Of a stretch of 64,000 nt of DNA, positions 5,512 through 29,891 are shown in pieces (the stretch's first letter is position 1; each line of letters starts with the position of its first letter). Both the position numbers and the translations under genes were made by a program. The DNA lies in the NCBI GenBank assembly GCA_001898505.1, contig MKTZ01000004.1:248001-312000 (forward strand). Reading direction: 5' to 3'. This stretch comes from Sphingobacteriales bacterium 50-39. GTDB taxonomy: Bacteria; Bacteroidota; Bacteroidia; Chitinophagales; Chitinophagaceae. Below the pieces are notes generated by a model. The model was given only the letters and a program-made list of their open reading frames with translations. It was not told where the DNA came from and did not search any database.

Positions 5512-5518
5512 TGTAATT

Positions 5519-9998: not shown

Positions 9999-10002
9999 GG
10001 GT

Positions 10003-10212
10003 ATGGAATTCATAGCCAAAGTAGAGGATAGCCAAAAGTCCAACATCCGGGAGATCGCAGCATCTCTGGAGAGTATGGGTATCCAGATCCGCCGGATCAT
10101 GCGCATCACGGGGACCATCTTCGGATCTACCAGGTCTTTGCCGTTGGCTAAATTGAAGATAAAGGGTATCAAGTCTGTAGAGCAGGATCGCCGGCTGCGG
10201 GCGCGCTCATAA
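10003..10212 (+). CDS. Stand-alone subtilase propeptide/I9-like inhibitor
   Basis: 69 residues from ATG 10003; a GTG or ACG start further up would read through the promoter box. The pattern is that of a subtilisin propeptide or I9 inhibitor: a first strand (MEFIAKVED), a helix (IREIAASLESMG), a second strand (IQIRRIMRITGTIFGS), a second helix and a last strand ending in GIKSVEQDRRLRA, where the I9 family has the Val-Glu-x-Asp that meets the protease cleft. It follows the subtilase by 48 bases and has its own promoter. The natural inference is a foldase or inhibitor for that protease. It overlaps the end of the convergent HTH gene by six bases. Confidence 0.7.
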   Translation: MEFIAKVEDSQKSNIREIAASLESMGIQIRRIMRITGTIFGSTRSLPLAKLKIKGIKSVEQDRRLRARS

Positions 10213-11457: not shown

Positions 11458-11600
11458 TGATAGTTAGACGCTTGTGATTTGAACAAACTTGTATCTACTT
11501 GAACAGGTCCTGCACTTACCTTCTCAGATCTTACCGCCATTTTTACCGGGAGCCACCGGACGCGGTCCGGCTAAAGTTTTTCAAAAATAAAAATATAAAC

Positions 11601-13346: not shown

Positions 13347-13491
13347 ATACTCGATGTTTAAGTATCCTTCGACGGACCGCTTCCGGCGGTGCCTGAAGAC
13401 TGGATATTAAAAATATTATAATTACGCGGCATAATATCAAATAGTTGCTTTTTATTCACAAAAACCGCGCTGGATCCTGCGCTGGGATTAA

Positions 13492-13611
13492 TTTTTTGTT
13501 AAAAAGTTCTCCCCGAAAACCTATGGGTCACGATCCACCATGATGTTGAAGGTGAAGGGGACCAAAGACACTACGGTGATCTTTATGGGAGATATCTGGA
13601 AGCCAAATTAG
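13492..13611 (+). pseudogene. Remnant of a coding sequence, possibly the C-terminus of a GH43-like protein
   Basis: The 260-base gap between the parvulin and the serine hydrolase gene holds a short frame, open between the stop at 13489 and the TAG at 13609. Its last 30 residues look like genuine protein: MLKVKGTKDTTVIFMGDIWK. I recognise the IFMGD-W-P pattern from C-terminal ends of family 43 glycoside hydrolases. There is no start and no upstream homologous frame. The alternative is chance similarity. Confidence 0.35.
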
Positions 13612-14723
13612 TTGGTCAGATCATGCAGCCTGAACACGGGTGAGAAGTCTCCCGCTCCTTCTTCCTGAAGGATGCGGACAATATCCCGGAAGGGGCGGCT
13701 GTTGTCAGCCAGGTTGGAGAAGTAGAAGATGCTCCATTCGTCCCCCGGCAGCTGGATGACGAAGTTGGAGAAGCCGCAGGTGCTGCCGGAGTGAAAGAGG
13801 ATCAGGGGCGAGCTGCCTGTCATAAACCATCCGCCGGCGTAGTAACTTCCTTCCATCCCCGCAATGGGGCTGCGCAGGCGGCGGAGGATGGGCGCGAGCC
13901 GTATCAGTTTATTTTCCTGCAGAGCTTTCATCCATTTGGAATAATCGCTGATGGAAGTATATACTCCGCCGTCGCCCCGGGTGGCGCTGGTGATATTTTG
14001 ATCGGAGAGATAGATCTTACCGGACGAGTCGCGGGCAAACCCCAGTGCCCGGTGAAGGGAATCGTAACCTTCATAGACAGCCGACCAGCTCACATCATAT
14101 ACGAAAGAATGATCCATGTGCAGGGGAGTGAATATGCCGTCTTTTAGGAAGGATGTGAAAGACTGATGAGCTGCCCGCTCGATGATCAGGGCCAGCAGAC
14201 AAAATCCGGAGTTGCTATACTGGAATTTGGAGCCCGGGATAAAATAAGTGGAGTCGTGGGTGGACAGCAAATGCAGTACATCTTCATCCAGCAGCTGGCG
14301 GGTCTGGGTGCGGGGGATCAGCGACTCATAGTCCAGGATGCCGGAGGTATGGGTGAGCAGGTGACGGATCGATACCTGCTGTCCGACGTGCGCGGGAAGC
14401 TCAGGCAGCCAGCGACCGATGGGGTCGTCGAAGCCGAGGCGCTCTTCTTTCTCCAGTAAGAAGATGCCCATGGCCGTGAATTGCTTGGTGACGGAGGCCA
14501 TGCGAAAGTTGGAGGTGGAATCCAGGGCCACGCCGGGAGGGAAAAGGTTGGTGCGGCCAATGGCGTTCCGATAGAGTACATCCCCTTTTTTCTCGATAGA
14601 TAATACGAAGCCTGGCGAGTCGGAAGCGTAGGAATGGAATAATGAGTCCAGAGGCGCGGTCAGGCGGGACTGGGAGAATGTAGTAACGCTGAGGAAGAGC
14701 AGCGGGAGAAAGGATAAACGCAT
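13608..14723 (-). CDS. Exported serine hydrolase (beta-lactamase/class C family)
   Basis: 371 residues with a signal peptide ending TTFSQ. The SxxK motif is SVTK near residue 77 (MASVTKQFTAMG), the YxN motif is YSNSG near 172, and a C-terminal HSGSTCGFSN occupies the KTG-box position. This group includes esterases, D-aminopeptidases and penicillin-binding proteins, so the substrate is open; periplasmic location is likely. It is the last gene of the seven-gene operon that starts with SusC and lies 9 bases after the APS kinase gene. In the context it could release an ester or amide from the imported or sulfonated compound, but this is inference. Confidence 0.85.
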   Translation of the reverse strand: MRLSFLPLLFLSVTTFSQSRLTAPLDSLFHSYASDSPGFVLSIEKKGDVLYRNAIGRTNLFPPGVALDSTSNFRMASVTKQFTAMGIFLLEKEERLGFDDPIGRWLPELPAHVGQQVSIRHLLTHTSGILDYESLIPRTQTRQLLDEDVLHLLSTHDSTYFIPGSKFQYSNSGFCLLALIIERAAHQSFTSFLKDGIFTPLHMDHSFVYDVSWSAVYEGYDSLHRALGFARDSSGKIYLSDQNITSATRGDGGVYTSISDYSKWMKALQENKLIRLAPILRRLRSPIAGMEGSYYAGGWFMTGSSPLILFHSGSTCGFSNFVIQLPGDEWSIFYFSNLADNSRPFRDIVRILQEEGAGDFSPVFRLHDLTN

Positions 14724-14732
14724 AGACGCAAT

Positions 14733-15347
14733 TTACGCGTAATCCTGAATCCCCCTAAAAATACGTCCAGCGCTTTGTTCGGGGGACTCCCGGTCTGTAG
14801 TGATGACCAGGTCAGATGTGGAGGGAATGTCGAACCTGGCCTGAATCCCTGTAAAGTCGATGATCTCTTTGTTGCGCGCTTTTTTATACAGCCCTTTTAC
14901 ATCCCGTTGTTCACAGACCTCCAGGGGGCAGGATACAAATACCTCAAAGTAGCCGGCGCCTATAATGGATCTTGCCAGATCGCGCTGTTCCCTGAGCGGG
15001 GTGATAAAGGAGCAGATCACAATGATATTGTTCTGTACCAGTATTTTTGCTATTTCTGCTGCTCTTCGTATGTTTTCGAGCCTGTCCGATTCGCTAAAGG
15101 TCAGGTCCTTGTTGATCCCCGACCGCAGATCGTCCCCATCGAGCAGGACAGTGATGAAACCTTTGTCTGCCAATAGCTTTGCCATGGTTTTGGCAAGGGT
15201 GCTTTTGCCTGCTCCGGATAAGCCGAGAAGCCAGATGACCATGCCTTTTTGTGTCAATAACGTTCCGGTGGTGGATGTTCCGGGATGGACGGGGCTTGGG
15301 AGGCCGACGGTGGCCTGGAAGTTGCCTAAGATGGTGTCTGATCTCAT
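14733..15347 (-). CDS. cysC: Adenylylsulfate (APS) kinase
   Basis: 204 residues. Phosphorylates APS at the 3' position to give PAPS, the sulfate donor of sulfotransferases. Motifs: the P-loop GLSGAGKST at residues 42-50, the DGDDLRSGINKDLTFSESDR segment that contacts APS, an ENIRRAAEIAK helix, a FITPLREQRD segment and a C-terminal CPLEVCEQRDVKGLYKKAR. All key parts are present. It overlaps the sulfotransferase-phosphatase fusion by four bases (ATGA), so translation is likely coupled. No ATP sulfurylase is encoded nearby; APS must come from elsewhere in the genome. The first 32 residues are shorter and different from typical CysC, but the core is intact. Confidence 0.92.
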   Translation of the reverse strand: MRSDTILGNFQATVGLPSPVHPGTSTTGTLLTQKGMVIWLLGLSGAGKSTLAKTMAKLLADKGFITVLLDGDDLRSGINKDLTFSESDRLENIRRAAEIAKILVQNNIIVICSFITPLREQRDLARSIIGAGYFEVFVSCPLEVCEQRDVKGLYKKARNKEIIDFTGIQARFDIPSTSDLVITTDRESPEQSAGRIFRGIQDYA

Positions 15348-17209
15348 AATGTGTCAGCTATTTGCATGGATGTAATGGAAGTGAGTGGATCGATCTGACT
15401 GGTCCCGCAAAGGAATGGACCGTTGAGGAGCTGCTCCTTATTGTATAAGAAAGGCTCCCCCGAGGGCTGGATGAATTGGCCTCCGCTGTATTGTATGATG
15501 GCGTGCCCGGCAGCAGTGTCCCACTCCATGGTAGGGCCATGCCGGTAATAGATATGTGCGCTGCCTTCTGCGATCAGGCAAAATTTGAGCGCGCTGCCCG
15601 CAGCGGCTTGTTTGGTAACAGGGTACTGCTCCAGCACTTCATTTTCCTTGTCACTGGAGTGGCTCCGGCTGGTGACGGCGGTCCAGTCTGTGGCTCGATG
15701 ATCTGTCCGGAGCTTCACCGGCTGCTGCCCCGGCGTCCGTTTCCAGCTGCCTGTTGACTCGGAACCATAATAAACAGTATGCGACGTGGGAATGTAGATC
15801 ATTCCAAATACCGGTTGTCGATGATGGATCAGTGCTATATTGATACAGAACTCTCCGTTGCGTTGCAGGAACTCTTTGGTGCCATCCAGGGGATCGATAC
15901 ACCAGAAATATTCCCAGTGTTGGCGAACCGCGTAAGGAACCGCGGCGCCTTCTTCCGACACGACGGGGATGGACGGGGTCAGCGACTGTAAGCTTTTGAC
16001 GAGGATCTCATGCGATGCCCTGTCGGCCAAGGTCAGGGGAGTAGAATCCTTTTTGATGGTGACCTGGCTGGTCATTGCGGGGTCGTTATAGATGGACAGG
16101 ATCGCGCTCCCGGCTGCTTGTACAATCCCGACGAGCGGGTCGATGAGGGAGGCGATCAGCGGGTCGATGAGAGAGGCATGGGGTGGGGCAGCCGGTGGTA
16201 TCCGGCCGGGGCGGTTTCTGATGGATGTAAGTATGTCGGATTGCTTTTTTCTTTTTTCCAGATCGCCCGGACGTGCTGTCGATAAAAATGCTGCCTTCAA
16301 CTGTTGGTTGATGGTCTCGTATTCTGCTATCGCCTGTGGCGATAACAAGTGATGATCCTCTCGGCTGGTATAGAGAGGATATCCCAGCGCCTGCAGCTCT
16401 TCTCCTGCGATGAGCTCGAACAGGACCAGCTCTGATCCGGTGAAACTGGTGAGGAATTTCCTGGTATTATCGCTCATGATGGGTTTTTCGAGGTTGCTCC
16501 ACATCTCACCTGCTGCGGCTGTATTGTGGGAGGCAGAGGAATGGTGGAATTGCAGCATTTCCTGCATAAAAGGAATTTCCAGGTAATGGCAAAGGGCTTG
16601 AATGGTCTGTTCCGGTGCACTGATCAAGGTCTCATAGCTCAGAGAAAAAAAGCGGGCGGGATCGATATCCCGCTGCAATGCGAGGCAGCGGCGCTGGTCC
16701 TCCTTCCATTGCGTGGCAAGGTGATAGATATGTTTTTCCCCAACGATGGCCTTTTTAAAAGAGGCCGCAACATCCCTGCCGTCCCGGTATAGAAAAATGT
16801 ATTTTGGCTGTATGCCGAATGCCTCCATCTCCGGAGCAAAATAGACATTGCCCATACTTTTACAGCACCAATACCGTGCTCCTTTGGCCAGCGCCGCCTG
16901 CTCATAGACCAGCCGGACCAGCTCGAACAGTTGATAATGGCGGGACTGTCTGAACAGCGCCTCTTTGTCCAATACTACTCCCTCCCAGGGTACGGGGTTG
17001 GCCTCGACATACGCTACTACATCAGCTATCAGCAGCTTGTAACCCGCCTCATCCATCGGCTCATAAGTTGGCATCAGCGGCATGAAATGGCTGATCAGGT
17101 GGGGCGGATGAGGCGCCGCGATAGCTGCAGACTGATCGAGCATCACCCGGAGGAGGTTGGAGCCCGACCGTTGAATACCGATGATTTGGATTCCCTGTAT
17201 GTTGCGCAT
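15344..17209 (-). CDS. Fusion of PAPS-type sulfotransferase and PAP phosphatase (CysQ-like)
   Basis: 621 residues. Residues 1-300 form a sulfotransferase: the 5'-phosphosulfate loop GIQRSGSNLL is at 11-20 and the 3'-phosphate segment YRDGRDVAASF at 141-151. Residues 357-621 form an inositol-phosphatase-fold domain with all metal motifs: VVSEEG at 416-421, CIDPLDGTKEF at 437-447 and EWDTAAGHA at 562-570, the pattern of 3'(2'),5'-bisphosphate nucleotidase. One chain would thus transfer sulfate from PAPS to an acceptor and hydrolyse the inhibitory by-product PAP to AMP. The linker (300-356) carries an 8-residue tandem repeat. No signal peptide, so it acts in the cytoplasm. It is co-translated with the APS kinase that makes its donor. 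The acceptor is unknown. Confidence 0.9.
   Translation of the reverse strand: MRNIQGIQIIGIQRSGSNLLRVMLDQSAAIAAPHPPHLISHFMPLMPTYEPMDEAGYKLLIADVVAYVEANPVPWEGVVLDKEALFRQSRHYQLFELVRLVYEQAALAKGARYWCCKSMGNVYFAPEMEAFGIQPKYIFLYRDGRDVAASFKKAIVGEKHIYHLATQWKEDQRRCLALQRDIDPARFFSLSYETLISAPEQTIQALCHYLEIPFMQEMLQFHHSSASHNTAAAGEMWSNLEKPIMSDNTRKFLTSFTGSELVLFELIAGEELQALGYPLYTSREDHHLLSPQAIAEYETINQQLKAAFLSTARPGDLEKRKKQSDILTSIRNRPGRIPPAAPPHASLIDPLIASLIDPLVGIVQAAGSAILSIYNDPAMTSQVTIKKDSTPLTLADRASHEILVKSLQSLTPSIPVVSEEGAAVPYAVRQHWEYFWCIDPLDGTKEFLQRNGEFCINIALIHHRQPVFGMIYIPTSHTVYYGSESTGSWKRTPGQQPVKLRTDHRATDWTAVTSRSHSSDKENEVLEQYPVTKQAAAGSALKFCLIAEGSAHIYYRHGPTMEWDTAAGHAIIQYSGGQFIQPSGEPFLYNKEQLLNGPFLCGTSQIDPLTSITSMQIADTL
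16130..16177 (-). repeat. 24-base tandem repeat at the fusion junction
   Basis: Two 24-base units, 21 of 24 identical, encode ASLIDPLI and ASLIDPLV between the sulfotransferase and phosphatase domains (residues 345-360 of the fusion). It may be a trace of how the two genes were joined. Confidence 0.8.
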
Positions 17210-17214
17210 AAGCC

Positions 17215-18576
17215 TTATTTTAAAACATAATATAACAAGTCAATACCCACCGTCCCCATGATGATCAATACGGGATTGATGCGGTAACGGCAGAGCAGGA
17301 TGAACGAAATCAATGCCACCAGCCATACCCATACGCCGGCGCCGCTCTGTACCGGCAACCTGATGCCTGTAGCCAGGATCATTCCGATGACGATGGGCTT
17401 TACCCCTGCCATTATCTTCTTCAACAGGGTATGTCCTTTGTATATCAGCAGTATCCGGGACATACAGATCATAAGCAGTACGGAAGGCAGGAAAATGCAA
17501 AGGGTTGCCAGCACCGCCCCCATCGCTCCCGCCAGCCTGTAGCCGGCAAAAGTGGCGCTGACCAGTATCGGGCCCGGCGTAGCCTGGCTGAAGGCAATAC
17601 CATCGACAAACTCTCTGAGGGTGAGCCAGTGTAAATGATCGACCAGCATCGACTGCATGAGGGGGATCATCACATACCCACCTCCAAAAAGTGTAAGGCT
17701 GATCCCTGAAAAGACGGCCGCCAGCCGGAGGAGCATGCTGTCTGCATACCGCTGTACGTCCGCCAGAAATTGCAATACCAGTCCCGAGAGCAAGGATAAT
17801 CTAAGCAGCATTCCCCACCCGAGGGGACTGCCCGGCTCCTGAAGGGCCGACTGCCCGGGGTTATGAAGAGGTGACTGCTCTGGCTTGTGAAGGGGGGCGG
17901 GGGACAAGAAGATGCCGGCGGTCACGCCAGCCAGGATGGCGCCGAGGGTGATATAATAATTGGTTACAAACAACATGACTCCGGCGGTGAGCACACAAAG
18001 GATATAGTTCAACGGATTGCTGCCTTTGATCTCTTTTTGGAACAGCCTTACTCCAGTGGATAAGATTATTGCGCAGACCGCACCGGTGATATGAGACCAT
18101 ACATTGGGGATCAGCTGCCGGCTGCCATAGTCCACATACAGCCAGGACAGGAACAACATAGCGGTAAATGCAGGCAGTAGTACGCCCAGCACACTGGCCA
18201 GGGCGCCCGCTATCCCTTTGGCGCGATAGCCTATATGCGCGACTACGTTTACGGCCAGTGGTCCCGGCAGGAGGCCGGCCAGGCTGATCCCCTCCAATAT
18301 CGTCTCGTGGCTGACACGTTTATCTTTGTCTGCCATGATCTTCTGTACCATCGCGACCAGGGCCATATGTCCTCCGAAAGAGACCATGCCTATCTTGAGA
18401 CAGGTACAGAACAGGTACCCCACCCCGGGATTGACAGTTGTGTCGCCTGTTGCGGCGGTCGCAGGAAAAAGGGGGATGGGTTTATCCTGCACAAAGGAGG
18501 GGATTGGCCCATTCTGCACCAGGAGGATTGGTTGATCCTGTGCCGGGGGCGCCGCTTTATTAAAGTTTGATAGCAT
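17215..18576 (-). CDS. chrA: CHR family anion transporter (chromate/sulfate type)
   Basis: 453 residues. It is a full-length two-domain member of the CHR superfamily: each half carries the family pattern, FGGHMALV...GLLPGPLAVNV in the first and FGGGYVMIPLM...ISFSQATPGPILVSATFAGY-like residues in the second. About 11-12 membrane segments are visible. ChrA proteins export chromate, a structural analogue of sulfate, and some members are linked to sulfate uptake. Here the gene is three bases from the arylsulfotransferase gene and five bases from the sulfotransferase-phosphatase gene, so a role in sulfate movement is more likely than chromate resistance. The N-terminal 50 residues are low-complexity with imperfect repeats (QNGPIP / QDKPIP), as is the linker between halves. 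Confidence 0.88.
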   Translation of the reverse strand: MLSNFNKAAPPAQDQPILLVQNGPIPSFVQDKPIPLFPATAATGDTTVNPGVGYLFCTCLKIGMVSFGGHMALVAMVQKIMADKDKRVSHETILEGISLAGLLPGPLAVNVVAHIGYRAKGIAGALASVLGVLLPAFTAMLFLSWLYVDYGSRQLIPNVWSHITGAVCAIILSTGVRLFQKEIKGSNPLNYILCVLTAGVMLFVTNYYITLGAILAGVTAGIFLSPAPLHKPEQSPLHNPGQSALQEPGSPLGWGMLLRLSLLSGLVLQFLADVQRYADSMLLRLAAVFSGISLTLFGGGYVMIPLMQSMLVDHLHWLTLREFVDGIAFSQATPGPILVSATFAGYRLAGAMGAVLATLCIFLPSVLLMICMSRILLIYKGHTLLKKIMAGVKPIVIGMILATGIRLPVQSGAGVWVWLVALISFILLCRYRINPVLIIMGTVGIDLLYYVLK

Positions 18577-18579
18577 CGG

Positions 18580-20052
18580 TTATAGTTTATAGCTAGGACG
18601 GGCATTCAAAAAATCCGAAATGGCTTCGATCCTGTAGGGATCCCCTCCCACATCGACTTTCCACAGTGTTTTGCCCTGGAGGTCCGTCAGCAGGAACAGG
18701 CGCGGGTCGGTGAGGCTGAACAGGAGCTTATTGCCATCGAGCAGCTGGACGCTGCCTTTGGAGGTGTTGAAATAGTCTTTCGGCAGTGTGACATCGATGT
18801 GACTGCGCGCGACCCTATTGACCGTGTCGAGACGGAAAGAGAGTGCCCGGGTAAGGCCTTTTTTTACACCATTGTCGAGGACCAGGAGCTCCTTGTCGGC
18901 ATCCATATGCACCGCATGCTGTCCGCTGAAAAGATCGCTGTCCGCCATCCTGTAATCCCCGCCTTGTCCGAGCTTCCAGAGGACCCGGCCGGTGCCATAT
19001 TCCACTTTCCAGACCTGGTTGAGATTGCGGAAGGAGATCAGAAAATTGCCGTCTTTGTCCCTGTAGAGAGCATTGGCATGCAGCCAGTCCTTCTTCTTTC
19101 GCATAATGGCGGTATCCTGTCGGGGATCCAGATGATCAAAGACAGACCATTCCCAGAGTTTGTGCCCTGTTTTGCTGAACAGCACGATACCATCTCCGGA
19201 GACGGTATCCTTCCCGGAAGCTGCTTTCGGCGGATGGCCCGGGGAACGGGCATTTCCGATGTCGCCTGAGGAAGTCAGATCGAAGAGTCTTTTGTCGAAT
19301 GTAAGCGCATAGATATTACCGATACTGTCTTTGCGGACCTCGTGGTGGACCAGCTTATCCATTTCTCCCTTGCCTGTTATAAGATCCGTCACCATTTTGC
19401 CGGTGAGGTCCATTTCGATGATCTCATCGCCGCCCGAGAAGGGGATCGAGGCGGCGCCGGCAATACAGAGAACAGTTTTGTCTTTGGTCCAGTGAGATAC
19501 TTTTATGCCTTTGTTGAAAGGGGCGTACCACACGATGTCACCCTGGTAATTGAATATGACGGCAGAACCCGGCTCTGTCAGGATCTGGGTTAGAAAATAA
19601 GTATCCTTCATCTCCTTCTTCACGGAAGCATCGAGTGTATCCAGTGAGAAATAAGGGGTCGCCTGGTAGATCGGCCCGGTGGAAAAACTATGGACAAGGC
19701 TGGTCGCAACGGGAATGCCGGAAGGATATGCCAGCACCCGGAACTGATAGGTCCTGGGGCCTTGCAGGTTGGTGAGACAAATGGCATGATAGCTTTTGCC
19801 GCGGCTGACGGTGGAATAGAGGGTATCTCCCGAACCAGGCAGCCAATAGGCTATTACCGCATCGCAGGATTTGTTCGTCTCCACCTCGAGGACCATCCTG
19901 AGCCTGTTGTCCGGCACGGGCGCCAGCTGAATATGATCGATCCGGAAGGGCGCGAAATAATGGACCGCCCATATGATGCCGGGGATCAACAGCAATGCCG
20001 GTAAAAGGAATACTCCCGCACGGATGATGATAGCAGCAGCTTTATTTTGCAT
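18580..20052 (-). CDS. Periplasmic arylsulfotransferase (ASST family)
   Basis: 490 residues from ATG 20052; a TTG two codons earlier is possible. PAPS-independent enzyme that moves sulfate from one phenolic sulfate to another phenol through a sulfo-histidine. The active-site pattern of the family is complete: His-His at 236-237, DWLHAN with His325, ISFRN with Arg342, and the nucleophile His379 in SGQHAVHMD followed by VLDNG. A single N-terminal hydrophobic segment (about residues 8-30) would anchor it in the inner membrane with the propeller in the periplasm. It lies 14 bases after SusD and three before the CHR transporter. The substrates are unknown; the SusC/D pair may supply them. Confidence 0.87.
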   Translation of the reverse strand: MQNKAAAIIIRAGVFLLPALLLIPGIIWAVHYFAPFRIDHIQLAPVPDNRLRMVLEVETNKSCDAVIAYWLPGSGDTLYSTVSRGKSYHAICLTNLQGPRTYQFRVLAYPSGIPVATSLVHSFSTGPIYQATPYFSLDTLDASVKKEMKDTYFLTQILTEPGSAVIFNYQGDIVWYAPFNKGIKVSHWTKDKTVLCIAGAASIPFSGGDEIIEMDLTGKMVTDLITGKGEMDKLVHHEVRKDSIGNIYALTFDKRLFDLTSSGDIGNARSPGHPPKAASGKDTVSGDGIVLFSKTGHKLWEWSVFDHLDPRQDTAIMRKKKDWLHANALYRDKDGNFLISFRNLNQVWKVEYGTGRVLWKLGQGGDYRMADSDLFSGQHAVHMDADKELLVLDNGVKKGLTRALSFRLDTVNRVARSHIDVTLPKDYFNTSKGSVQLLDGNKLLFSLTDPRLFLLTDLQGKTLWKVDVGGDPYRIEAISDFLNARPSYKL

Positions 20053-20066
20053 AAGCAAAGATTTTG

Positions 20067-21644
20067 TTATTGCCGGACCCGGCCATTGTTGACAGACGGA
20101 GTTAAGGAGGTATTGGCCTGCAGCTCGCTTTGCGGATAGGGGTAGACGGCATAATTCACCGCATCGGAATAGGTATTGGGGTCTCTCAGCCGGGGTAAGA
20201 CATATGTTTTGAATTTAGACAAGGGACTGGCGCCATTGGTAGCGCTTCTGCCCCACCGGAGCAGATCGTCCCTGCGCCGTCCTTCCATGAAGAACTCCAG
20301 ATTCCTTTCATCAAAGATCTTATCGCGCAGCTGTTGTTTGGTAGCATAATCCGTCAGGTTGATATTGGGCAGCTTGCTGCGGTTCCTCACCTGGTTGACC
20401 AGGTCGATGCTCTCCTGGGTGGGGCCATTGATCTCATTTAATGCTTCTGCCCTCATCAACAGGACGTCTGCATATCGTAAGATGGTGACATTGTTGAACC
20501 CGGCATAATTGTAATTGTTGATATGCGGATATTTCAGGTTGTATACATAGGTTGCCGCTACGGTATCGGGCGCACTACCGCCGGGTCCGCCATATGCTTT
20601 AGGTACGCTGATAACTTCTCCATAGAGGGACTTGTAAATGCCTGTCAACAGCGTTTTCCGGTCGTCCGCCGAATCGAAAAGGGCGTAGAATTCGAGGTGT
20701 ATAGGGAAATTGCCCCAGCCCCGGTTGTAGTCCCAAGGTAAGGAGTTGATCCCAAAACTGTTGGAGTTGATGGTATAGGCTCCCGGATCGCTGGATGATT
20801 TCAATACGAATATGAACTCGTTGTCGGCACGGTTATCCGTATAAAACAGGGACTGGATGCCGCCTTCGGCAACTGCCCTCAGGTCATACTGTCCCGATTG
20901 GATGATCGTCTGCGCCTCATCGGCGGCATTTTGCCACTCTCCCCTGCGCATATATAATCTTGTGAGCAGGGCGGAAGCTGCTCCGGTGGTGGCCCTTGCG
21001 ATCTGTGCGGGCGGATAGCCGGCCGGGAGATATTGTTTGGCAAATTTCAGGTCCGTGATCATGGAATCTTCGATAATGGCCTGGCTGGTCAGCTTTGGGT
21101 TCATATCCGCGGTTGTGAATTGAGAAGAGGGTTTACGGATCAGGGGAACATCTCCCCAGAGATCAGTGGCATCGAAGTAGGCGAGTGCGCGCAGGAACCG
21201 TACTTCTCCCAGGTGCTGGTTTTTGATGGCTGCAGTAGAGCCGTTGTTGACGTAGTCGATGTTATTGATCAGGGCGTCTGCCTCGTTGGTCCTGGAGATC
21301 AGTCTGAAGATGCTGCCCCAGACGTTATTGATAATGGAATTGGAGGCGTCATAGGTCAGCTGGTCGAGTTGGACACCCTGTTTGGAAACGGGGCTGGTCG
21401 TGACCACATCAGCGGGGTATTCATATAGCCAGTAGAGAAAGCCGGCGTAATAGCCATAACCGCCATTGTCCTTGAGTCCGGCATAGGCCCCGACCACGGC
21501 CTGCTGACCGTTCTCAGGTTTGGTAAGGGTGTTCTGATCGTAGGTGGAATAAGTTTCCTCCTTTAAGTTCTTGTCACAGCCCTGCAAGGTACAGGCAGCC
21601 ATGAGATATAAAAGAGCTAAGGGGTATGATAGTTGTCGTTTCAT
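20067..21644 (-). CDS. SusD/RagB-type outer-membrane lipoprotein
   Basis: 525 residues from the ATG at 21644 (MKRQLSYPL); an ATG at 21653 would add three residues. The signal peptide ends in LQGC (Cys23 from this start), a lipobox. The SusD signature is present: the N-terminal NGQQAVVGAYAGLKD, the TPR-like HLGEVRFLRALAYFDATDLWGDVPLI, and the C-terminal FFMEGRRRDDLLRWGR. SusD binds the ligand and closes over the SusC barrel. It follows SusC by about 28 bases and precedes the arylsulfotransferase gene by 14. The ligand is unknown and SusD proteins are too divergent to predict it by eye. Confidence 0.93.
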   Translation of the reverse strand: MKRQLSYPLALLYLMAACTLQGCDKNLKEETYSTYDQNTLTKPENGQQAVVGAYAGLKDNGGYGYYAGFLYWLYEYPADVVTTSPVSKQGVQLDQLTYDASNSIINNVWGSIFRLISRTNEADALINNIDYVNNGSTAAIKNQHLGEVRFLRALAYFDATDLWGDVPLIRKPSSQFTTADMNPKLTSQAIIEDSMITDLKFAKQYLPAGYPPAQIARATTGAASALLTRLYMRRGEWQNAADEAQTIIQSGQYDLRAVAEGGIQSLFYTDNRADNEFIFVLKSSSDPGAYTINSNSFGINSLPWDYNRGWGNFPIHLEFYALFDSADDRKTLLTGIYKSLYGEVISVPKAYGGPGGSAPDTVAATYVYNLKYPHINNYNYAGFNNVTILRYADVLLMRAEALNEINGPTQESIDLVNQVRNRSKLPNINLTDYATKQQLRDKIFDERNLEFFMEGRRRDDLLRWGRSATNGASPLSKFKTYVLPRLRDPNTYSDAVNYAVYPYPQSELQANTSLTPSVNNGRVRQ

Positions 21645-21672
21645 GTTGTGCATTTTTTAATGTGGAACACGC

Positions 21673-24600
21673 TTAGTTAAATCTGACTTTTATTCCTACC
21701 GTGATGATCCTGCTCATGGGATAGGCATTGAAATCCAGTCCGCGGGCAGCATTCTGGTTCAGGTAAGAGGCCGATACCATGTTGCCTACCTCGGGATTCA
21801 ATCCTGAATATCGGGTGAAAGTGTGCAGGTTCTGTCCGTTGATATAGGCATCGAGAGAGGAGATGCCGGAATGTTTGAGCAGCCGGTCCGGTATATGATA
21901 GTTGAGCGTGACGTTGCGAATCTTCACAAAGTCGGAGCTCTCTATAAAAAAGGAGTTGACAAAGCCTCCATAGGGATTGCCATACCAGCCCCGCTCGGGG
22001 ATGGCTCCTCCGGGGTTTGAAGGGGACCAGGTTTGTGTCAGCAGTGTTTTCAGCTCATTGCCGGTGGAGAGGGGATTTTCCAGGTCCTCCTTCTGAATGT
22101 TCACGAGCTTGCCTCCGAACTGTCCCTGCAGCACAATGTCCAGCGTGAACCCTGAGTAGGACAGACTGGTATTGAAGCCTGCGATGACGGTAGGGATGCT
22201 CTGTCCAAGAATGACCCTGTCGGCGGCGCTGACAACGGAGTTGCTGGTGGTCTTTACGAATTTCGGGTCGCCCGGTTTGGAGTTCGGCTGGGTGGTGGTC
22301 AGCACTTTGTCGTTGACCTGGACAATGCCGGCATATTTATACCCGTAAATAGCGCCGATGGGTTCTCCTGTCCGGAGGATAAAGGGGTCTTCGAAATTGG
22401 CTGTGCCATCGGGTTTGAAGGAGCCCAAATAGATATCCGCATTGTTCTCGCCGAGTGACAATACCTTGCTGTGGTTGATCGCATAGCTGAAGCCGGTGGT
22501 CCATTTAAATGTTGCTGTGGAAATATTGGTGGAGTTGACGGCAATCTCGAATCCATTGTTTTGGACGGCGCCGTCATTGCCTATCTGTGTTGTAAATCCC
22601 GTGGAGGGGGCGATGTTGCGATTGAGCAGGAGGTTGGTGGTCTTTTTCCGGTAATAGTCTGCTTCTATGAGCACCCTGTCCCTGAAGAAGCCGATGTCTA
22701 ATCCGAGATCGAGCGCGGCAGTCTGTTCCCATTTGAGATTGGGGTCGGCGAGGCTGGTCACTGCAATGCCGCTGACGGGGGCGGAGCCGCTAAAAGTATA
22801 GATGGTGGCGTTAGAACTCGCCCAGGTAGCTATAGAGTTGCCGGCGCTGATCCGGTCGTTGCCTGTTATCCCATAGCTGGCTCTTAGCTTACCTGTGGAA
22901 AGCGCTGTCAGGGTTTCGAGGAAGTCCTCTTTTCTAAAGTTCCAGGCAAGGGCTGCGGAGGGAAAGTATCCCAGTTTATTGTTGGCTCCAAAGACAGACG
23001 AACCGTCGATGCGATAAGTGCCGCTGAATATGTATTTGCCATCGAAGTCATAATCGATCCTTCCGAACCAGCTTTGTCTTTTGATGAGTGTTTTGACGGA
23101 ATAGGCGGAAAAATGCTGGGCGCTGGCGAGATTGTTATAGCCGAGGGCGTCGCTGCTGAAGTCGGTGGCGCTGGTGCCCTGTTCCCAGTACGAGGAGCCT
23201 TGCAGGTTGTATCCCAATAAGATCCCGAAATTATGCCGACCGGTCTTGTAGCCATAGTTGAGGGTTGGATTGATCAGCAGGTCTTGCGACTGTATGTTCA
23301 CGATGCTGGCCTGTCCGCTGTCCGACTGTCCTGCGGGTACGGAGGACGGGGCAAAATAGTAGCTGTTGTTGTGATTGATGTCTGCACCCAGGTCCATTTT
23401 CAGCGTCAATCTTTTTAAGAGCTGGTATTGGGCGGAAAAATAGCCCTGCAGACGAAACCAGGTGTTTTTCTGATCGATGTCGGCTATAAAGTGGAGCGGA
23501 TTTTGCGCGTCGAGCACTGCCGGCGCATCGAAGGTAGAGGAGGGGTTGGCTTTCAGCACCTGTTTGACGAATCCATTGATGGTGGATGGGGCCAGGGGCA
23601 GGCTGTTTTGAATGCCATAGGTGGAGAAGATCCGTTCCGATATTTTGATCTTGTCATTGATCTCCTGGTCCATGTTCAGGCGGCCGCCTATCCTCCGGTA
23701 TTTTGAGTTGATCACGATCCCGTCCTGGTTCAGGTAGTCCAGGCTGGAATAGGTGGTGGAGCGTTTGGACCCGCCCGTTGTACTGACGGAAAAATTTTGG
23801 ATGTTGGCCGGACGGAAGGCGACCTTTTGCCAGTCGGTGCCAAAGAAACCTCTTTTAAGGGAGTCCAGCATGCCTGCGGAATAAGGGGCGGGGTTGCCTA
23901 AAGAGGTTTGCAACGCATTCAAACGTACTGCATTGTCATAGGGGCCGATGAGGTCATAACGGCCAACTACCTTTTGTACGCCCATGGAGGCAGAGGCATT
24001 GACCCTGGTGGGCTTGTTGTATCCGCTCTTCGTGGTGATCATGACGACGCCATTGGCTCCCCGGGCCCCATAGATGGAGGTGGAGGCGGCATCTTTCAAT
24101 ACCGTGATCGATTCGATGTCGTCCGGGTTCATCGAGAACCCGATGTTGTCGCTCAAGGGAAATCCATCTACCACGTAGAGCGGATCGCTGCCGGCATTGA
24201 TGGAATTGGTGCCTCGTATCCGGATGGTGAGACCTGCTCCGGGCGTGGCGTCGTTCTGGTATACTTCTACTCCGGAGGCCTTGCCTTGTAAGAGGTTGGC
24301 TACCGACAGGCTGGATTTGTTCAATTGTTCGGCCTGGAGCACAACTCCGGCTCCGGCAAACTCACTTTTTTTGCGGGTGCCATAGCCTACTACCATCACC
24401 TGGTTCAATACTTTTACATCCGGCAGCATGGTGATGGTGATCTTCGACTGATCCACGATACGGAGTTCCTGGGAGAAATAGTTGACGGAACTACAGACCA
24501 GTGTTGCGCCGGGATGTACTTTTAACACAAAGTTGCCTGTCTCGTCCGTCCTTGTGCGGTGGGCTGTCCCCTTTACGATGATGTCGGCTCCGGGGAGGGG

Positions 24601-24765
24601 TTCCCCTTTATCTGACAGGACTTGTCCCGTGACCGTGAGCTGTCCGGCCGGCGTGATTTGTTGCCCGTCGGCAGCAGGTTTGGACTGGGCAATAGCGGGA
24701 TGATGGTACAGGAGAGCTCCGCATAATAATAAGGAGAGCAATCTGGTTTTGGTTGATGGATGCAT
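21673..24765 (-). CDS. SusC/RagA-type TonB-dependent outer-membrane transporter
   Basis: 1030 residues. The signal peptide ends at AIAQ (about residue 27). A carboxypeptidase-D-like domain follows (TVTGQVLSDKGEPLPGADIIVKGT), then the plug (VMVVGYGTRKKSE, VRIRGTNSINAGSDPLYVVDGFPL, ITVLKDAASTSIYGARGANGVVMITTK), then a large barrel ending in FN as usual. It imports a ligand of unknown nature together with SusD. This is the first gene of the seven-gene sulfur operon and is divergent from the hybrid sensor gene. A promoter-like box and a probable operator lie upstream (24783-24825). No STN sigma-control domain is visible, fitting control by the hybrid sensor rather than an ECF sigma factor. Confidence 0.95.
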   Translation of the reverse strand: MHPSTKTRLLSLLLCGALLYHHPAIAQSKPAADGQQITPAGQLTVTGQVLSDKGEPLPGADIIVKGTAHRTRTDETGNFVLKVHPGATLVCSSVNYFSQELRIVDQSKITITMLPDVKVLNQVMVVGYGTRKKSEFAGAGVVLQAEQLNKSSLSVANLLQGKASGVEVYQNDATPGAGLTIRIRGTNSINAGSDPLYVVDGFPLSDNIGFSMNPDDIESITVLKDAASTSIYGARGANGVVMITTKSGYNKPTRVNASASMGVQKVVGRYDLIGPYDNAVRLNALQTSLGNPAPYSAGMLDSLKRGFFGTDWQKVAFRPANIQNFSVSTTGGSKRSTTYSSLDYLNQDGIVINSKYRRIGGRLNMDQEINDKIKISERIFSTYGIQNSLPLAPSTINGFVKQVLKANPSSTFDAPAVLDAQNPLHFIADIDQKNTWFRLQGYFSAQYQLLKRLTLKMDLGADINHNNSYYFAPSSVPAGQSDSGQASIVNIQSQDLLINPTLNYGYKTGRHNFGILLGYNLQGSSYWEQGTSATDFSSDALGYNNLASAQHFSAYSVKTLIKRQSWFGRIDYDFDGKYIFSGTYRIDGSSVFGANNKLGYFPSAALAWNFRKEDFLETLTALSTGKLRASYGITGNDRISAGNSIATWASSNATIYTFSGSAPVSGIAVTSLADPNLKWEQTAALDLGLDIGFFRDRVLIEADYYRKKTTNLLLNRNIAPSTGFTTQIGNDGAVQNNGFEIAVNSTNISTATFKWTTGFSYAINHSKVLSLGENNADIYLGSFKPDGTANFEDPFILRTGEPIGAIYGYKYAGIVQVNDKVLTTTQPNSKPGDPKFVKTTSNSVVSAADRVILGQSIPTVIAGFNTSLSYSGFTLDIVLQGQFGGKLVNIQKEDLENPLSTGNELKTLLTQTWSPSNPGGAIPERGWYGNPYGGFVNSFFIESSDFVKIRNVTLNYHIPDRLLKHSGISSLDAYINGQNLHTFTRYSGLNPEVGNMVSASYLNQNAARGLDFNAYPMSRIITVGIKVRFN

Positions 24766-24945: not shown

Positions 24946-27900
24946 ATGAGAAAATTGCTTCTGTTACCGACTTTATTGGTCTTGCCATTTTGCCTGTTTT
25001 CCCAGACCTTGCCCGTCCGGTTCGAGCAGGTGGGCATCAATGAGGGGCTTTCCCAGAGTACCGTCACCTGTATCCTGCAGGACAGAAAGGGGTTTATTTG
25101 GTTTGGCACCAAGGATGGGCTGAATAAATACGATGGTTACCGTTTCACGGTGTTTAAGAAAAACTTCAAGAACGAGAATTGTCTTAGCTCCAATGACATA
25201 AAGTCCATGGTAGAGGACAGGGATGGTAAAATATGGATCGCCACCTCTGAAGGCGGTGTCAACAAACTGGACCCGGTCACCGGTAGGTTTGTCCATTATT
25301 ATAAAGGTGCGTCTGTGAATGGGATCTCCAGTGACCATACGCGATGCATTTATGAGGACAGGGAGGGGAATATCTGGCTGGGCACGGAAGGGGAGGGGGT
25401 AGATGTGTGCGATAAAAAGACGGGGCGGTTCCGGCATTTTGTCTATGATGATAAAGTTGTCTACGAGGATAAAGCCAGGCAGTCGGGGATAAACGGCGAT
25501 GATATAAGCGACAATACCATCAATGCATTGTACCAGGACAGCAAGGGGAATATCTGGATCGGTACCGCTAAAAAGGGATTATATCTTTTTAACCCGGTGA
25601 CCAATGAACTGCATGGTTTTCTTAACGACGCCGCTGATAAACGATCGCTGTCCAATAATAATGTACAGTTTATCTATGAGGATAAGCAAAAGCGTCTATG
25701 GGTCGGGACCTATGGCGGCGGGCTCGATCTGTATGATCCGGCCATTAGGGGTTTTCTGTCATTCCCGGGGTCGCAGGGCTCCGCCGGAAATGGGGGCGGC
25801 AACAGGCTGCTTTCAGTGGCTGAAGATGACAAAGGGATGTTGTGGATCGGCACTGAGAATGGAGGGGTGGAAGTTTTTGATCCTGTGACGCAGCGGGCGA
25901 TGACCTATGTTCACCAGGATGCCGACAATACCAGTCTCTCGGGCAATACCATCAACGCGGTCTACAGCGACACCAAGGGAAATATCTGGCTGGGAGTGCT
26001 GAATGGCGGTATCAATATGGTCAACAAAGATGCGGCCCGGTTCGCTCACTACAAATACACACCCGGCAATAATATTATTAACTGCCTGTATGAAGATGGG
26101 ATGGGCAAACTTTGGATCGGGACGGATGGGGGAGGATTGCGCAGATTTGACCGTACCAGCAAACAAGTCTTTGCTTACAGGCATGTAAAGAATGATCCGC
26201 GCAGCATCAGCGGTGATTATGTACTATCGGTGTGCGAGGATGCCGCCCATCAGCTCTGGGTTGGTACCTGGGGCGACGGGATCTCGGTGATGGACCCGCG
26301 GACCGGGGTGTGCAGGCAATTCCGATATACCCCCGGTGACGCCCATAGCCTGAGCAACAATAATGCATTTGTCCTGCTGCGTGATAGAAGGAACAAGATC
26401 TGGATTGGCACTTACGGCGGCGGGCTCAATCTTTATGATCCGTCCAAGGGTGGTTTTGTCCATTTTCTTCACGACCCGTCCGACCCGGCCAGCCTGAGCA
26501 GTAACTATATTCTAACGCTGCAGGAGGACCGTCAGGGGCATCTTTGGGTGGGTACGGATGGGGGTGGCTTGGATCGCCTGGACCCGGAGAGTCATACCTT
26601 CCATACTTACAGGCGCGGTGATGCAAAAAACTCCTTAAGCAGTAATAGCGTCCGAACGATGTGGCAAGATCAACAGGGCTATCTTTGGCTGGGGACCAAT
26701 TTTGGACTGGACAGGTTTGATCCGTCCACCGGTGCGACGGTTGCTTATTTTGAACAGAACGGCCTGCCTGATGACTGGGTCACCGGTATCCTGGGAGATG
26801 CCCGGGGCACGCTATGGATCAGCACTACCAAGGGACTTTCCCGATTCAATGCTGAAACGGGCAGTTTTAAGAATTTCACGATGTCCGATGGTATTCAGGG
26901 ATATGAGTTCAAATCCGCGTGTTTGTGCAGGGATGGACAAATGTACTTTGGCGGAAAAAATGGTTTTAATGAATTCTATCCGGACAGCATTCGCAGCACC
27001 AATTTCGATCCGCCGATTGTCTTTACGGATTTCCAGCTTTTTAATAAGGAGGTGGAGGTTGCCCAAAATGACAAAGACCCCTCACCGCTGAAGGTGAATA
27101 TTGCTGATGCGGACCAGATCGTGCTGACCCATGACCAGTCAGTGATCTCTTTTGGTTTTGCTTCCCTGAACTACACCGGAAGAGAAAAGAAAGCATATGC
27201 CTATATGCTGGAAAACTTTGACAAGGGCTGGCATGATCTGGGCCCCAAGAACAGTGTCACCTATACCAATATCGATCCGGGAGATTATGTGCTGAGGGTT
27301 AGGGGCCTAACCAATGACGGGCAAAGGTCGACCCGGCAGGCATCGATCCGGCTCCGGTTTTTGCCTCCCTACTGGAAAACATGGTGGTTCAGATCGATGG
27401 TAGTTGTATTGATCAGCGGGATCACGTTGCTGATCTTTTATCGCCGTGTGGCCGCCATCAAAAATCGAAACAGGCTCCTGGAGCGGCAGGTTGCCGTCCG
27501 GACAAAAGAGCTGCAGGAGGCCAATCATACGAAGGACCGTTTTTTTTCTATTCTGGCTCATGATCTTAAAAACCCGGTGTCTGCGTTGGCCGGGATCTCG
27601 GATATGTTGAAAAAGCAGCTGCCTGAACTAAGCGAAGAGGCGGTATATGATCATGTCGATACGATCCATAAGGCTGCGGGGTCGGTGAGCAATTTATTAA
27701 ACAACCTTTTGGACTGGGCCAGGACCCAGACGCAGCATATTTCCTGTACGCCGGCCGGCGTCAGTGCTTATGAACTGGTGCGCAAGAACCAGCTGCTGGC
27801 TGAGCCGCAGCTCAATGATAAGCATATTGGCTTCAGCATGGATGTTGCTACCGAGCATGTCCTATGGGTCGACCCCCGGATGATGGATACTGTTCTGCGC

Positions 27901-29103
27901 AATATCATCAGCAACAGTATAAAGTTCACGCCGGCGCATGGAAAGATCACGGTGGTTTCGGAGGATTTGGGTAACGAGATATCCATTACGGTGTCCGATA
28001 CCGGGATCGGTATGACCAGGGAACAGATTGAAATGCTGTATGCGATAAAGAAGCAGCGCCCGATGGACGGTACTGCCGGTGAAAAAGGCACCGGGCTGGG
28101 GCTGATCATTTCCAGGGAGTTTATGGAGATCAACAAGGGCTCCATTGTTATCCAGAGCGAGCCCGGTAAAGGATCTTCCTTCCGGATGCTTTGTCCCAAA
28201 GCAGCTGATACCGGGTTGACCTTTGTTCTGCCCGATGATCTATTGGGAGGCGCTCCGGATATAGCCTCTTCCCCTGCCTCCGCTGACATGGACAGCCTGT
28301 CTGCCGCAAAGATCAGCGACCTGAAAGGACGCAAGGTGTTGGTGGTAGATGACAATGAGGAGATCAGGAATTATCTCAAGCTGATGCTTTCCGGCAATTT
28401 CGGGATCGTCGAAGCCGCCAATGGGCAGGAAGGGATCGAGGCAGCCAGGGAACACCAGCCCGACGTGATCATATCAGATATGCTAATGCCTGTGATGAAC
28501 GGATTGGAATTTTGTAAAAAGATAAAGGGGGATAAGGCTACTTCACATATCCCCGTCATTATCCTCACCAGTCAGACCAGCCAGGAGAGCCATCTTTCAG
28601 GTTATGAGGCGGGGGCTGACGTCTACCTGATGAAAGATATCAGCCGGCATATCTTATTCCAGGTGATCCTTAATTTTTTGCGCAACCAGGAGAAATTGCG
28701 CGAGCGATTTGCCCGGTCGGGTGATATTTACCCTGAAGGGCTGGATTTCAATAAACTGGATAAGGAATTTTTGGATGACGTCAGCCGGTTTGTGGAAGCT
28801 CATTTATCCGATGTGGACCTGGACTATAAGAAGATATGCAGTCATACAGCAATGAGCAGGACCGTGCTTTATGCCAAGTTCAAGACGCTGACCGGGCAGG
28901 GGGTACATGATTTTGTCAAGACCGTCCGGGTTAAAAAGGGTCTGCAGCTGCTACAGGAAGGGCGGTTAAATATTACTCAAATTGCTTATGAGGTCGGATT
29001 CTCTACTCCCTCTTATTTTTCCAAAAGCTTCACCAAACAGTTCGGCCTTCCTCCCAAGGAATACCTGGCGGAACTAAAGAAAAAGGCAGTTCAGGACCTA
29101 TAG
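24946..29103 (+). CDS. Hybrid two-component system sensor-regulator (HTCS)
   Basis: 1385 residues. Order of parts: signal peptide (1-20, CLFSQ); fourteen or so propeller repeats with the typical D--G-IWIGT--GGL-R/YD pattern up to about 700; a Y_Y_Y domain (about 715-790); a membrane helix near 810-832; HisKA with the phospho-acceptor His in SILAHDLKNP near 870; HATPase with NIISNSIKFTP, DTGIGM and GTGLGL; a receiver with KVLVVDDNEE near 1129 and the target Asp in IISDMLMP near 1176; and an AraC DNA-binding domain in the last 110 residues. The periplasmic propeller dimer senses a released oligosaccharide or similar ligand and turns on nearby genes. It lies between the SusC operon and the GH16 pair, and both carry the same upstream motif. 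All catalytic residues look intact. Confidence 0.96.
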   Translation: MRKLLLLPTLLVLPFCLFSQTLPVRFEQVGINEGLSQSTVTCILQDRKGFIWFGTKDGLNKYDGYRFTVFKKNFKNENCLSSNDIKSMVEDRDGKIWIATSEGGVNKLDPVTGRFVHYYKGASVNGISSDHTRCIYEDREGNIWLGTEGEGVDVCDKKTGRFRHFVYDDKVVYEDKARQSGINGDDISDNTINALYQDSKGNIWIGTAKKGLYLFNPVTNELHGFLNDAADKRSLSNNNVQFIYEDKQKRLWVGTYGGGLDLYDPAIRGFLSFPGSQGSAGNGGGNRLLSVAEDDKGMLWIGTENGGVEVFDPVTQRAMTYVHQDADNTSLSGNTINAVYSDTKGNIWLGVLNGGINMVNKDAARFAHYKYTPGNNIINCLYEDGMGKLWIGTDGGGLRRFDRTSKQVFAYRHVKNDPRSISGDYVLSVCEDAAHQLWVGTWGDGISVMDPRTGVCRQFRYTPGDAHSLSNNNAFVLLRDRRNKIWIGTYGGGLNLYDPSKGGFVHFLHDPSDPASLSSNYILTLQEDRQGHLWVGTDGGGLDRLDPESHTFHTYRRGDAKNSLSSNSVRTMWQDQQGYLWLGTNFGLDRFDPSTGATVAYFEQNGLPDDWVTGILGDARGTLWISTTKGLSRFNAETGSFKNFTMSDGIQGYEFKSACLCRDGQMYFGGKNGFNEFYPDSIRSTNFDPPIVFTDFQLFNKEVEVAQNDKDPSPLKVNIADADQIVLTHDQSVISFGFASLNYTGREKKAYAYMLENFDKGWHDLGPKNSVTYTNIDPGDYVLRVRGLTNDGQRSTRQASIRLRFLPPYWKTWWFRSMVVVLISGITLLIFYRRVAAIKNRNRLLERQVAVRTKELQEANHTKDRFFSILAHDLKNPVSALAGISDMLKKQLPELSEEAVYDHVDTIHKAAGSVSNLLNNLLDWARTQTQHISCTPAGVSAYELVRKNQLLAEPQLNDKHIGFSMDVATEHVLWVDPRMMDTVLRNIISNSIKFTPAHGKITVVSEDLGNEISITVSDTGIGMTREQIEMLYAIKKQRPMDGTAGEKGTGLGLIISREFMEINKGSIVIQSEPGKGSSFRMLCPKAADTGLTFVLPDDLLGGAPDIASSPASADMDSLSAAKISDLKGRKVLVVDDNEEIRNYLKLMLSGNFGIVEAANGQEGIEAAREHQPDVIISDMLMPVMNGLEFCKKIKGDKATSHIPVIILTSQTSQESHLSGYEAGADVYLMKDISRHILFQVILNFLRNQEKLRERFARSGDIYPEGLDFNKLDKEFLDDVSRFVEAHLSDVDLDYKKICSHTAMSRTVLYAKFKTLTGQGVHDFVKTVRVKKGLQLLQEGRLNITQIAYEVGFSTPSYFSKSFTKQFGLPPKEYLAELKKKAVQDL

Positions 29104-29174: not shown

Positions 29175-29867
29175 ATGACAAATATGATTTTGGCCTTGAT
29201 CGGATTACTATCTTTTGGCTCTTCGGATTCTACTTCACCCTCTGTTCACGGGCAGTCCCAAAGATGGGAGTTCAACAACCTGGCAGGATGGACAGACGCT
29301 TCCCAAAACATGAATGGGACGATCAATTATGTCATTCAAAATGATACGCTCCGGATGTATACCCGGAGGGGGACCTGGGACCGTCCCAAGGTAAAGACCG
29401 TGGATAGCAATTATACTTCGGGGACCTATACCTGGCGGGTATATGTGCCGGAGATGGGCAAGGGCGACCGGTCCAGCATCGGCGCTTTTTTGTACCAGGA
29501 CGACACCCATGAGCTGGATTTCGAGACCGGCTATGGAACAAAGAAGATAAGGGAGGAACTTGGGGCGGTGAAGGACGATATTGTTGTCTATATGACTTCG
29601 CAGGCGTATCCCTTTCAATCCATCCCTCAAAAGATAAAAAGGGAGCAGTGGCATACTTTCTCCATCCGGCTGGAAGACAATCAGGGAAAATACCTGGCAT
29701 CCTGGTACATCGATGGCAGGCCGGCAGTGCAGTTGCCGCTGGGATTCGGGCCGGAGACCCATTTTGCCATTTTTTGCAGTGTGGAGAACCTGAAGTTTAT
29801 CGGGGACCATATTGCAAAGCAGGACAACTATGCGCTATTCGATTATGTGGAATACAAAAATGACTAA
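29175..29867 (+). CDS. Secreted GH16-like / concanavalin-fold protein
   Basis: 230 residues with a short signal peptide (about residues 1-27). The fold resembles glycoside hydrolase family 16: GTYTWRVYVPEMGKGDRSSIGAFLY precedes ELDFE (about residues 116-120), which fits the E-x-D-x-E catalytic motif of that family, and a later WHTFSIRLED...ASWYIDGRPAV pair of strands is also typical. GH16 enzymes cleave beta-1,3 or beta-1,4 glucans and galactans (laminarin, agar, carrageenan). It is followed 24 bases later by a second GH16-like gene. A motif shared with the SusC operon suggests control by the adjacent sensor. It is short for a GH16 enzyme, and a binding role is possible. Confidence 0.72.
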   Translation: MTNMILALIGLLSFGSSDSTSPSVHGQSQRWEFNNLAGWTDASQNMNGTINYVIQNDTLRMYTRRGTWDRPKVKTVDSNYTSGTYTWRVYVPEMGKGDRSSIGAFLYQDDTHELDFETGYGTKKIREELGAVKDDIVVYMTSQAYPFQSIPQKIKREQWHTFSIRLEDNQGKYLASWYIDGRPAVQLPLGFGPETHFAIFCSVENLKFIGDHIAKQDNYALFDYVEYKND

Positions 29868-29891
29868 TTGTTAAACCAAAAAACATCCATT

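Follow-up and report, generated by a model that had tools for sequence, protein, structure and literature searches.

Within the window, the whole stretch of 64,000 nucleotides that was analysed, from a member of the Bacteroidota, there is an operon of seven minus-strand genes that very probably encodes one joint sulfonation system. SusC, SusD and an ASST-family sulfotransferase (ASST) seem to handle a compound outside the cell, and a CHR-family permease, a PAPS-dependent-type sulfotransferase (ST), the PAP phosphatase CysQ and the APS kinase CysC seem to make a sulfated small molecule and, we infer, to export it. Relatives keep the same gene combination, and the operon may therefore pass activated sulfate from the inside of the cell to the outside. 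That it is a dedicated sulfonation system, relaying sulfate over the inner membrane in two stages, we regard as just short of evenly balanced. More tentatively we propose that some Gram-negative bacteria supply activated sulfate outside the inner membrane in this way, with ST charging a carrier, CHR exporting it and ASST sulfating the cargo of SusC/SusD.

In the relay, CysC would convert APS, provided by CysDN encoded elsewhere, into PAPS. With PAPS as donor, a cytosolic ST would sulfate a small carrier that bears a hydroxyl group, and the CysQ domain on the same chain would clear the by-product PAP. The CHR permease, a member of a separate clade, would then export the sulfated carrier, this being its putative cargo and direction. 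Finally a histidine of the anchored, extracytoplasmic ASST would pick up the sulfuryl group and pass it on to the last acceptor; this would most likely be an oligosaccharide or a glycoside brought through the outer membrane by SusC/SusD. Against the relay stands the lack of any carrier gene among those of the operon; a carrier might be made by a type III polyketide synthase (PKS)-UbiA-methyltransferase cluster on contig C8 of the same genome, or any cellular phenol might serve.

Table 1. Genes of the operon and its divergent neighbours, with window positions and the matches on which each assignment is based.
Feature	Position	Strand	Basis
SusC/RagA TonB-linked outer-membrane transporter	21673..24765	-	TIGR04056 783.6 bits, cut-off 368
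SusD-family outer-membrane lipoprotein	20067..21653	-	PF07980 126 bits, cut-off 23
ASST-family sulfotransferase, N-terminal hydrophobic helix	18580..20058	-	PF05935 95.3 bits, cut-off 24.2
Two-domain CHR-family permease, ST-linked clade	17215..18576	-	PF02417; TIGR00937 211 vs 172; tree
ST-CysQ fusion	15344..17209	-	Sulfotransfer_3 PF13469 90 vs 27; PF00459; TIGR01331 267 vs 229
APS kinase CysC	14733..15347	-	TIGR00455 209 bits, cut-off 139
Beta-lactamase-fold serine hydrolase	13608..14723	-	PF00144 165 bits, cut-off 27
Hybrid two-component regulator, HTCS type, divergent	24946..29103	+	Reg_prop, HisKA, Response_reg, HTH_18
GH16-like protein, ExDxE motif	29175..29867	+	Alignment, motif in 15/15 rows
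GH16-like putative lipoprotein, ExDxE motif	29868..30665	+	Alignment; GH16-glucanase matches of a low-confidence model (pLDDT 60)

The seven open reading frames are intact, with no internal stops, all lie inside the span first assigned to the operon, and their families score above curated cut-offs, so that the operon is as real as the sequence-only reading took it to be. From SusC to the serine hydrolase the intergenic gaps are 19, 8, 3, 5, -4 and 9 bases. The earlier figures were gaps of 3-28 bases and a 4-base overlap; the overlap and the gap of 3 stand, and the 28 does not, the largest gap measured being 19. A gap of 28 bases would fit a later start codon for SusD. The stated lack of a sulfatase and an ATP sulfurylase is borne out by the family search, in which none of the seven operon proteins matched either family. 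Scans for promoters and terminators gave 16 and 16 compared with shuffle means of 11.2 and 12.1, where the signal is not clear.

The ST-CysQ chain has 621 residues, with the PAPS-dependent-type ST at about 7-230 and the CysQ PAP phosphatase at about 356-601 as placed by profiles and alignment. Among the labelled loci the two occur as a single chain in this genome only. SusC and SusD belong to outer-membrane families, and CHR is a permease by family. Inspected by eye, 17 of 19 ASST N-termini have an anchor of hydrophobic residues, a lipobox or a stretch resembling a signal, and none of these is seen at the N-termini of ST-CysQ and CysC; ASST should on this reading act outside the cytoplasm. With the compartments read in this manner, the genes would be ordered from those acting outside the cell to those acting within it.

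An AlphaFold model of the window ASST has a mean pLDDT of 88 and a single long N-terminal helix. Its top Foldseek match is Cpz4 (9kf6; E=3.3e-18, 22% identity, TM-score 0.58/0.62), and this is also the nearest solved structure in a phmmer search (E=2.8e-17). E. coli AssT is absent from the best 50 Foldseek matches listed for the model, and gave no match from the ASST profile. His238, His239, His327, Asn329 and His381 are kept in all 39 aligned ASSTs, with H327, N329 and H381 aligning with His, Asn and His of Cpz4; the conserved residues probably correspond to His252/His356/Asn358/His436 of EcAST. The window protein has the active-site Arg, Arg344, which aligns with an Arg of Cpz4 and is present in 12 of the 39 sequences and replaced in 27, a point that counts against the relay. 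It was considered as a mark of ST-linked ASSTs (11/21, compared with 1/18 of the others) and rejected; it is replaced in 10 of the 21 ST-linked proteins, and since its distribution follows the ASST tree no rule is drawn.

The gene order recurs in relatives. In a scan of genome_contigs, 80 of 269 candidate loci were kept; the query included CysQ, so that CysQ adjacency in these loci is not independent, and the neighbour table excludes loci shorter than 5,000 bases and STs below 200 bits. An ST above 200 bits is found in 19 of the 80 loci. Ten of these 19 have SusC-SusD-ASST-CHR-ST-CysQ in the same order on one strand, with ST and CysQ as separate genes, in Chitinophaga, Parapedobacter, Dyadobacter, Mucilaginibacter, Niabella, a Chitinophagales MAG and bacterium A37T11. 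CHR lies no more than 90 bases from ST in 16 of the 19, CysC is within 2.1 kb of ST in 15, and SusC, SusD and ASST fall within about 8 kb in 12. Against the relay, over the loci of all samples, CHR is absent beside ST in L009/L153, L013 and L155; CHR-ST occurs without ASST in the stretch examined in L160, L040 and L010; and ST is without any partner in L147, L149, L151 (weak) and L045. No serine hydrolase was found near ST in the other loci of the neighbour table. This recurrence in relatives argues against chance in the grouping of the operon genes.

The genes divergent from the operon are of the kind found in polysaccharide utilization loci. The HTCS gene begins 180 bases from the start of SusC, and is followed by the two GH16-like genes. 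A relative of this regulator is also near 7 of the 12 SusCD-ASST-ST loci of the neighbour table (drawn from the same 80 of 269 candidates), and it is possibly the regulator of the operon. The second GH16-like protein is a homologue of a gene found in nine relative loci, and recurs as a neighbour of these operons. Neither GH16-like protein has a Pfam match, and because the model of the second is poor its Foldseek matches to glucanases back only the motif. The operon itself contains no glycan-degrading enzyme, these two genes lying past the regulator. From neighbours of the HTCS, GH16, GH123 and GH20 types we consider that the acceptor is probably a saccharide.

Linkage was also measured with the ST domain alone as query, lacking CysQ, in 395 class genomes and 294 family genomes. 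ST was found in 7 of the former and 8 of the latter, our own genome being included in both, and there are 13 ST places besides our own. ASST lies within 15 kb of ST at nine of the 13 (L148, L150, L152, L155, L156, L157 and L159, with G995 at 11.6 kb and G955 at 12.9 kb), and CHR is adjacent to ST at eight (L148, L150, L152, L154 and L156-L159); both are missing at L147, L149 and the weak L151. The ASSTs of L148 and L150 are distant ones by Pfam (72 and 61 bits vs 24), and there ST, CHR and ASST stand together in 18-20 kb of examined sequence that shows neither SusCD nor cys genes. No ST was found in the five other genomes listed under our genus, making the trait patchy. The family sample and the genome_contigs loci overlap, with three G genomes shared with L008, L009 and L046.

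Across the 294 family genomes the partners follow ST closely, by Fisher tests in which kinship is ignored. A close CHR (a match of at least 247 bits, the next best being 102) is present in 6/8 genomes with ST and 0/286 without (p=3e-11), so that all six genomes having the close CHR also have ST. ASST is found in 16 genomes, comprising 7/8 with ST and 9/286 others (p=3e-9); the ST genome scored as lacking ASST, G779, has a 101-residue open reading frame at a contig end that clustered with ASSTs, with no phmmer label or search match. APS kinase at E<=1e-18 is present in 75 genomes (98/294 at the default cut), in 8/8 with ST and 67/286 others (p=1e-5).

The CHR proteins divide by their linkage to ST. 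In a tree of 44 rows (chains longer than 300 aa and above 60 bits numbered 59, with 44 distinct, and there was a long-branch warning) the 24 ST-linked CHRs, including that of Serratia, fall together to one side of a branch supported at 100/99. This clade is apart from 20 unlinked family CHRs, which represent 20 of 31 unlinked places, and no proven chromate transporter is among the rows. The sequence-only reading had allowed that a lack of conservation in relatives would argue against one system; in the event the order recurs, the genes co-occur, and the CHRs form their own clade. Its proposal of an uptake-linked sulfonation system is supported, and as a conserved one, by the same order in the ten loci and by the co-occurrence in family genomes. 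That ASST is found together with the PAPS-dependent ST and with CHRs of a clade of their own suggests that transfer runs outward. The further statement that sulfate is added inside therefore holds for sulfonation and not for the inside as its only site, as the ASST N-termini and the ST/CHR linkage point outward too.

Correlations of sequence identity, calculated over up to 16 loci and over pairs that are not independent, separate the operon into two sets. ASST correlates with SusC at 0.96 and with SusD at 0.95, the SusC/SusD/ASST set spanning 0.95-0.97. ST/CHR gives 0.89 and CHR/CysC 0.93 (11 loci), the ST/CHR/CysC set spanning 0.86-0.93. CysQ correlates at 0.69 with ST, 0.82 with CHR and 0.83 with CysC, and the values between sets are 0.46-0.81, with ASST/CysC at 0.81. 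This suggests two modules, SusC/SusD/ASST and ST/CHR/CysC, although the low ST/CysQ value and the high ASST/CysC value speak against it. On an ASST tree of 37 rows the presence of ST needs six changes, at least five of them forced by well-supported branches; the labels depend on the stretch examined, and three were set by hand where ST lies just beyond it. Accordingly the tree suggests that the two modules have joined or split repeatedly, and their recurrent association makes most sense if the ST/CHR/CysQ/CysC set provides the donor for ASST.

ASST also has a second type of locus. In 14 of the 37 rows (L118 and L119 on contigs C15 and C9 of our own genome, L121-L127, L166-L169 and L171) SusC-SusD-ASST occurs with a dihaem SoxA/TsdA-like cytochrome c and with no ST in the stretch examined, so that ASST is not always dependent on the ST/CHR/CysC module. 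Two rows have both ST and the cytochrome. Some of the dihaem-cytochrome loci also carry GH123N and DUF5107 genes. A phylum scan with ASST gave matches in 41 of 395 genomes, mostly weak, and none of the four weak matches examined (L129-L132) had SusC/SusD beside the ASST gene.

These relationships bear on a different view of the operon, in which it serves detoxification: ST would sulfate phenolics in the cytosol and CHR expel them, with ASST only shuffling sulfate among phenols outside. As a family ASTs act on phenols, according to the accessible part of PMC13426309, and a Serratia plasmid with Sat-CysC, TauE/SafE, ST, CysQ and CHR, and with no SusCD or ASST annotated over the 25 kb viewed, resembles a portable export cassette. 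Against this, the ASST gene is no more than 600 bases from SusD in 36 of the 37 rows of the ASST tree and diverges in step with SusC and SusD, which suggests that ASST works on SusCD cargo, and the neighbours are of the glycan type already described. We consider detoxification unlikely.

The supply of PAPS points toward sulfonation. CysC is the sole APS-kinase match in its genome. CysH, CysD and CysN are encoded on contig C16, so that the earlier idea of a complete PAPS cycle within the operon has to be given up, the ATP sulfurylase (CysD/CysN) being on another contig. CysH exceeds the cut-off for the APS-reductase family TIGR02055 (247.9 vs 235.3) and falls below that for the PAPS-reductase family TIGR02057 (153.1 vs 254.2); it also exceeds the cut-offs of PRK02090 (264 vs 154) and TIGR00434 (181.4 vs 165.1), two generic models that bear the name phosphoadenylyl-sulfate reductase. 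On balance it leans to the APS type, in which case CysC and CysQ should both be dispensable for assimilation. With the only APS kinase in the operon and CysH apparently of the APS type, the PAPS from this operon probably serves sulfonation, as the sequence-only reading had supposed. Sulfur assimilation was rejected as the role of the operon on the same location of CysDNH and the same CysH assignment.

CHR could alternatively import sulfate for CysC and ST, with ASST and ST acting independently on separate substrates and merely being co-regulated. BT_0412 was proposed as a sulfate importer in a Bacteroides PAPS/ST cluster (in the accessible part of PMC9417993), and the high CHR/CysC correlation would agree with such a role. 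However, CHR adjoins ST with no cys genes in the stretch examined in L148, L150, L156, L157 (a short contig) and L159, and two SulP permeases are encoded elsewhere in the genome, outside the operon. We think this improbable, to the same degree as detoxification. On those two observations CHR was rejected as the sole sulfate importer, and its first description as a handler of sulfate-like anions proves too general.

SusCD with glycoside hydrolase neighbours is catabolic in known loci. A catabolic salvage pathway, in which SusCD takes up sulfated compounds, ASST moves their sulfate to a small phenol and sulfur assimilation accounts for the cys genes, would fit this background, and three loci with ST have sulfatase-like genes nearby (L010, L156, and L163 as the continuation of L155). 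Such a pathway has no place for a PAPS-type ST, and the CysDNH genes on another contig and the apparently APS-type CysH do not fit an assimilatory role, so that salvage is very improbable. Catabolism of sulfated glycans was likewise rejected: the operon is without a sulfatase, and the 14 Sulfatase-family matches of the genome, eight of them with E <1e-35, are on other contigs. In L156, a family genome, an SGSH-type sulfatase gene (4377-6089) has three genes between it and the SusCD-ASST-CHR-ST operon. That the genes are neighbours with no joint function is scarcely credible, for although each module is also found alone, the operon-like spacing, the ST/CHR/ASST co-occurrence and the forced changes on the ASST tree all stand against it.

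The proposed relay has its closest parallel in caprazamycin biosynthesis in Streptomyces, where one pathway uses both an ST that depends on PAPS and an ASST that does not (accessible part of PMC4257720). There Cpz8, the PAPS-dependent ST, makes phenolic sulfate esters that are the donors for the ASST Cpz4 (Tang et al. 2013, as described in that part of PMC4257720). Both in sequence and in fold, the solved relative closest to the window ASST is Cpz4. It favours the sugar hydroxyl of glycosides (accessible part of PMC13426309). The two systems differ in that Cpz8/Cpz4 uses triketide pyrones as carrier and has an antibiotic as product (PMC4257720, same part), whereas the window operon, with neither a carrier gene nor a type III PKS, comes with SusC/SusD, a regulator and a CHR permease. 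A type III PKS is matched once in the genome, on contig C8, and by none of the operon proteins; its gene lies with UbiA prenyltransferase and methyltransferase genes (L194, 228-3140).

Other systems share parts of this arrangement. The cholesterol-sulfate cluster BT_0411-BT_0416 of Bacteroides, also in the Bacteroidota, has PAPS-forming genes beside an ST, but the accessible part of PMC9417993 mentions no ASST, SusCD or CHR. AssT of E. coli CFT073 and other bacterial ASTs share the Pfam family, the extracytoplasmic location and the catalytic histidine; they use aryl sulfate donors, the accessible part of PMC13426309 mentions no PAPS-fed partner, and the CFT073 gene sits with dsb genes, unlike the window ASST. 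Adipostatin adpST with adpP1-P3 is similarly an ST with a dedicated PAPS cassette, but performs a one-step resorcinol sulfation, and the accessible part of PMC12135136 mentions no ASST or transporter. Polysaccharide utilization loci share SusC/SusD, an HTCS-type regulator and nearby GH16-like proteins, whereas inside the window operon there is no glycoside hydrolase or sulfatase and the enzymes add or move sulfate. A literature search covering few subscription papers found no published description of a SusC/SusD-ASST locus with ST and CHR.

If true, the relay would answer where ASSTs outside the cell obtain their sulfate, giving them a natural donor. It would also give the CHR clade a physiological role, and define a class of sulfate-adding uptake loci; the present data suggest that some SusC/SusD loci sulfate their own cargo. 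The pairing of ASST with its own PAPS-fed ST and a transporter makes the questions of donor and acceptor directly testable, and offers a non-chromate role of the CHR clade for testing.

The ST-CHR pair extends beyond the Bacteroidota to plasmids. In a plasmid collection ST has 10 matching records; of these, two Serratia plasmids alone reach a coverage of 80% or more, at 42% identity. Both also head the CHR matches, at 37% identity. On one of these, Serratia sp. plasmid NZ_CP074141.1 (L160), no SusCD or ASST is annotated across the 25 kb viewed. Its Sat-CysC, TauE/SafE, ST, CysQ and CHR cassette occupies 8967-15008 and is near IS30 and Tn3 transposases, and the plasmid is typed as conjugative.
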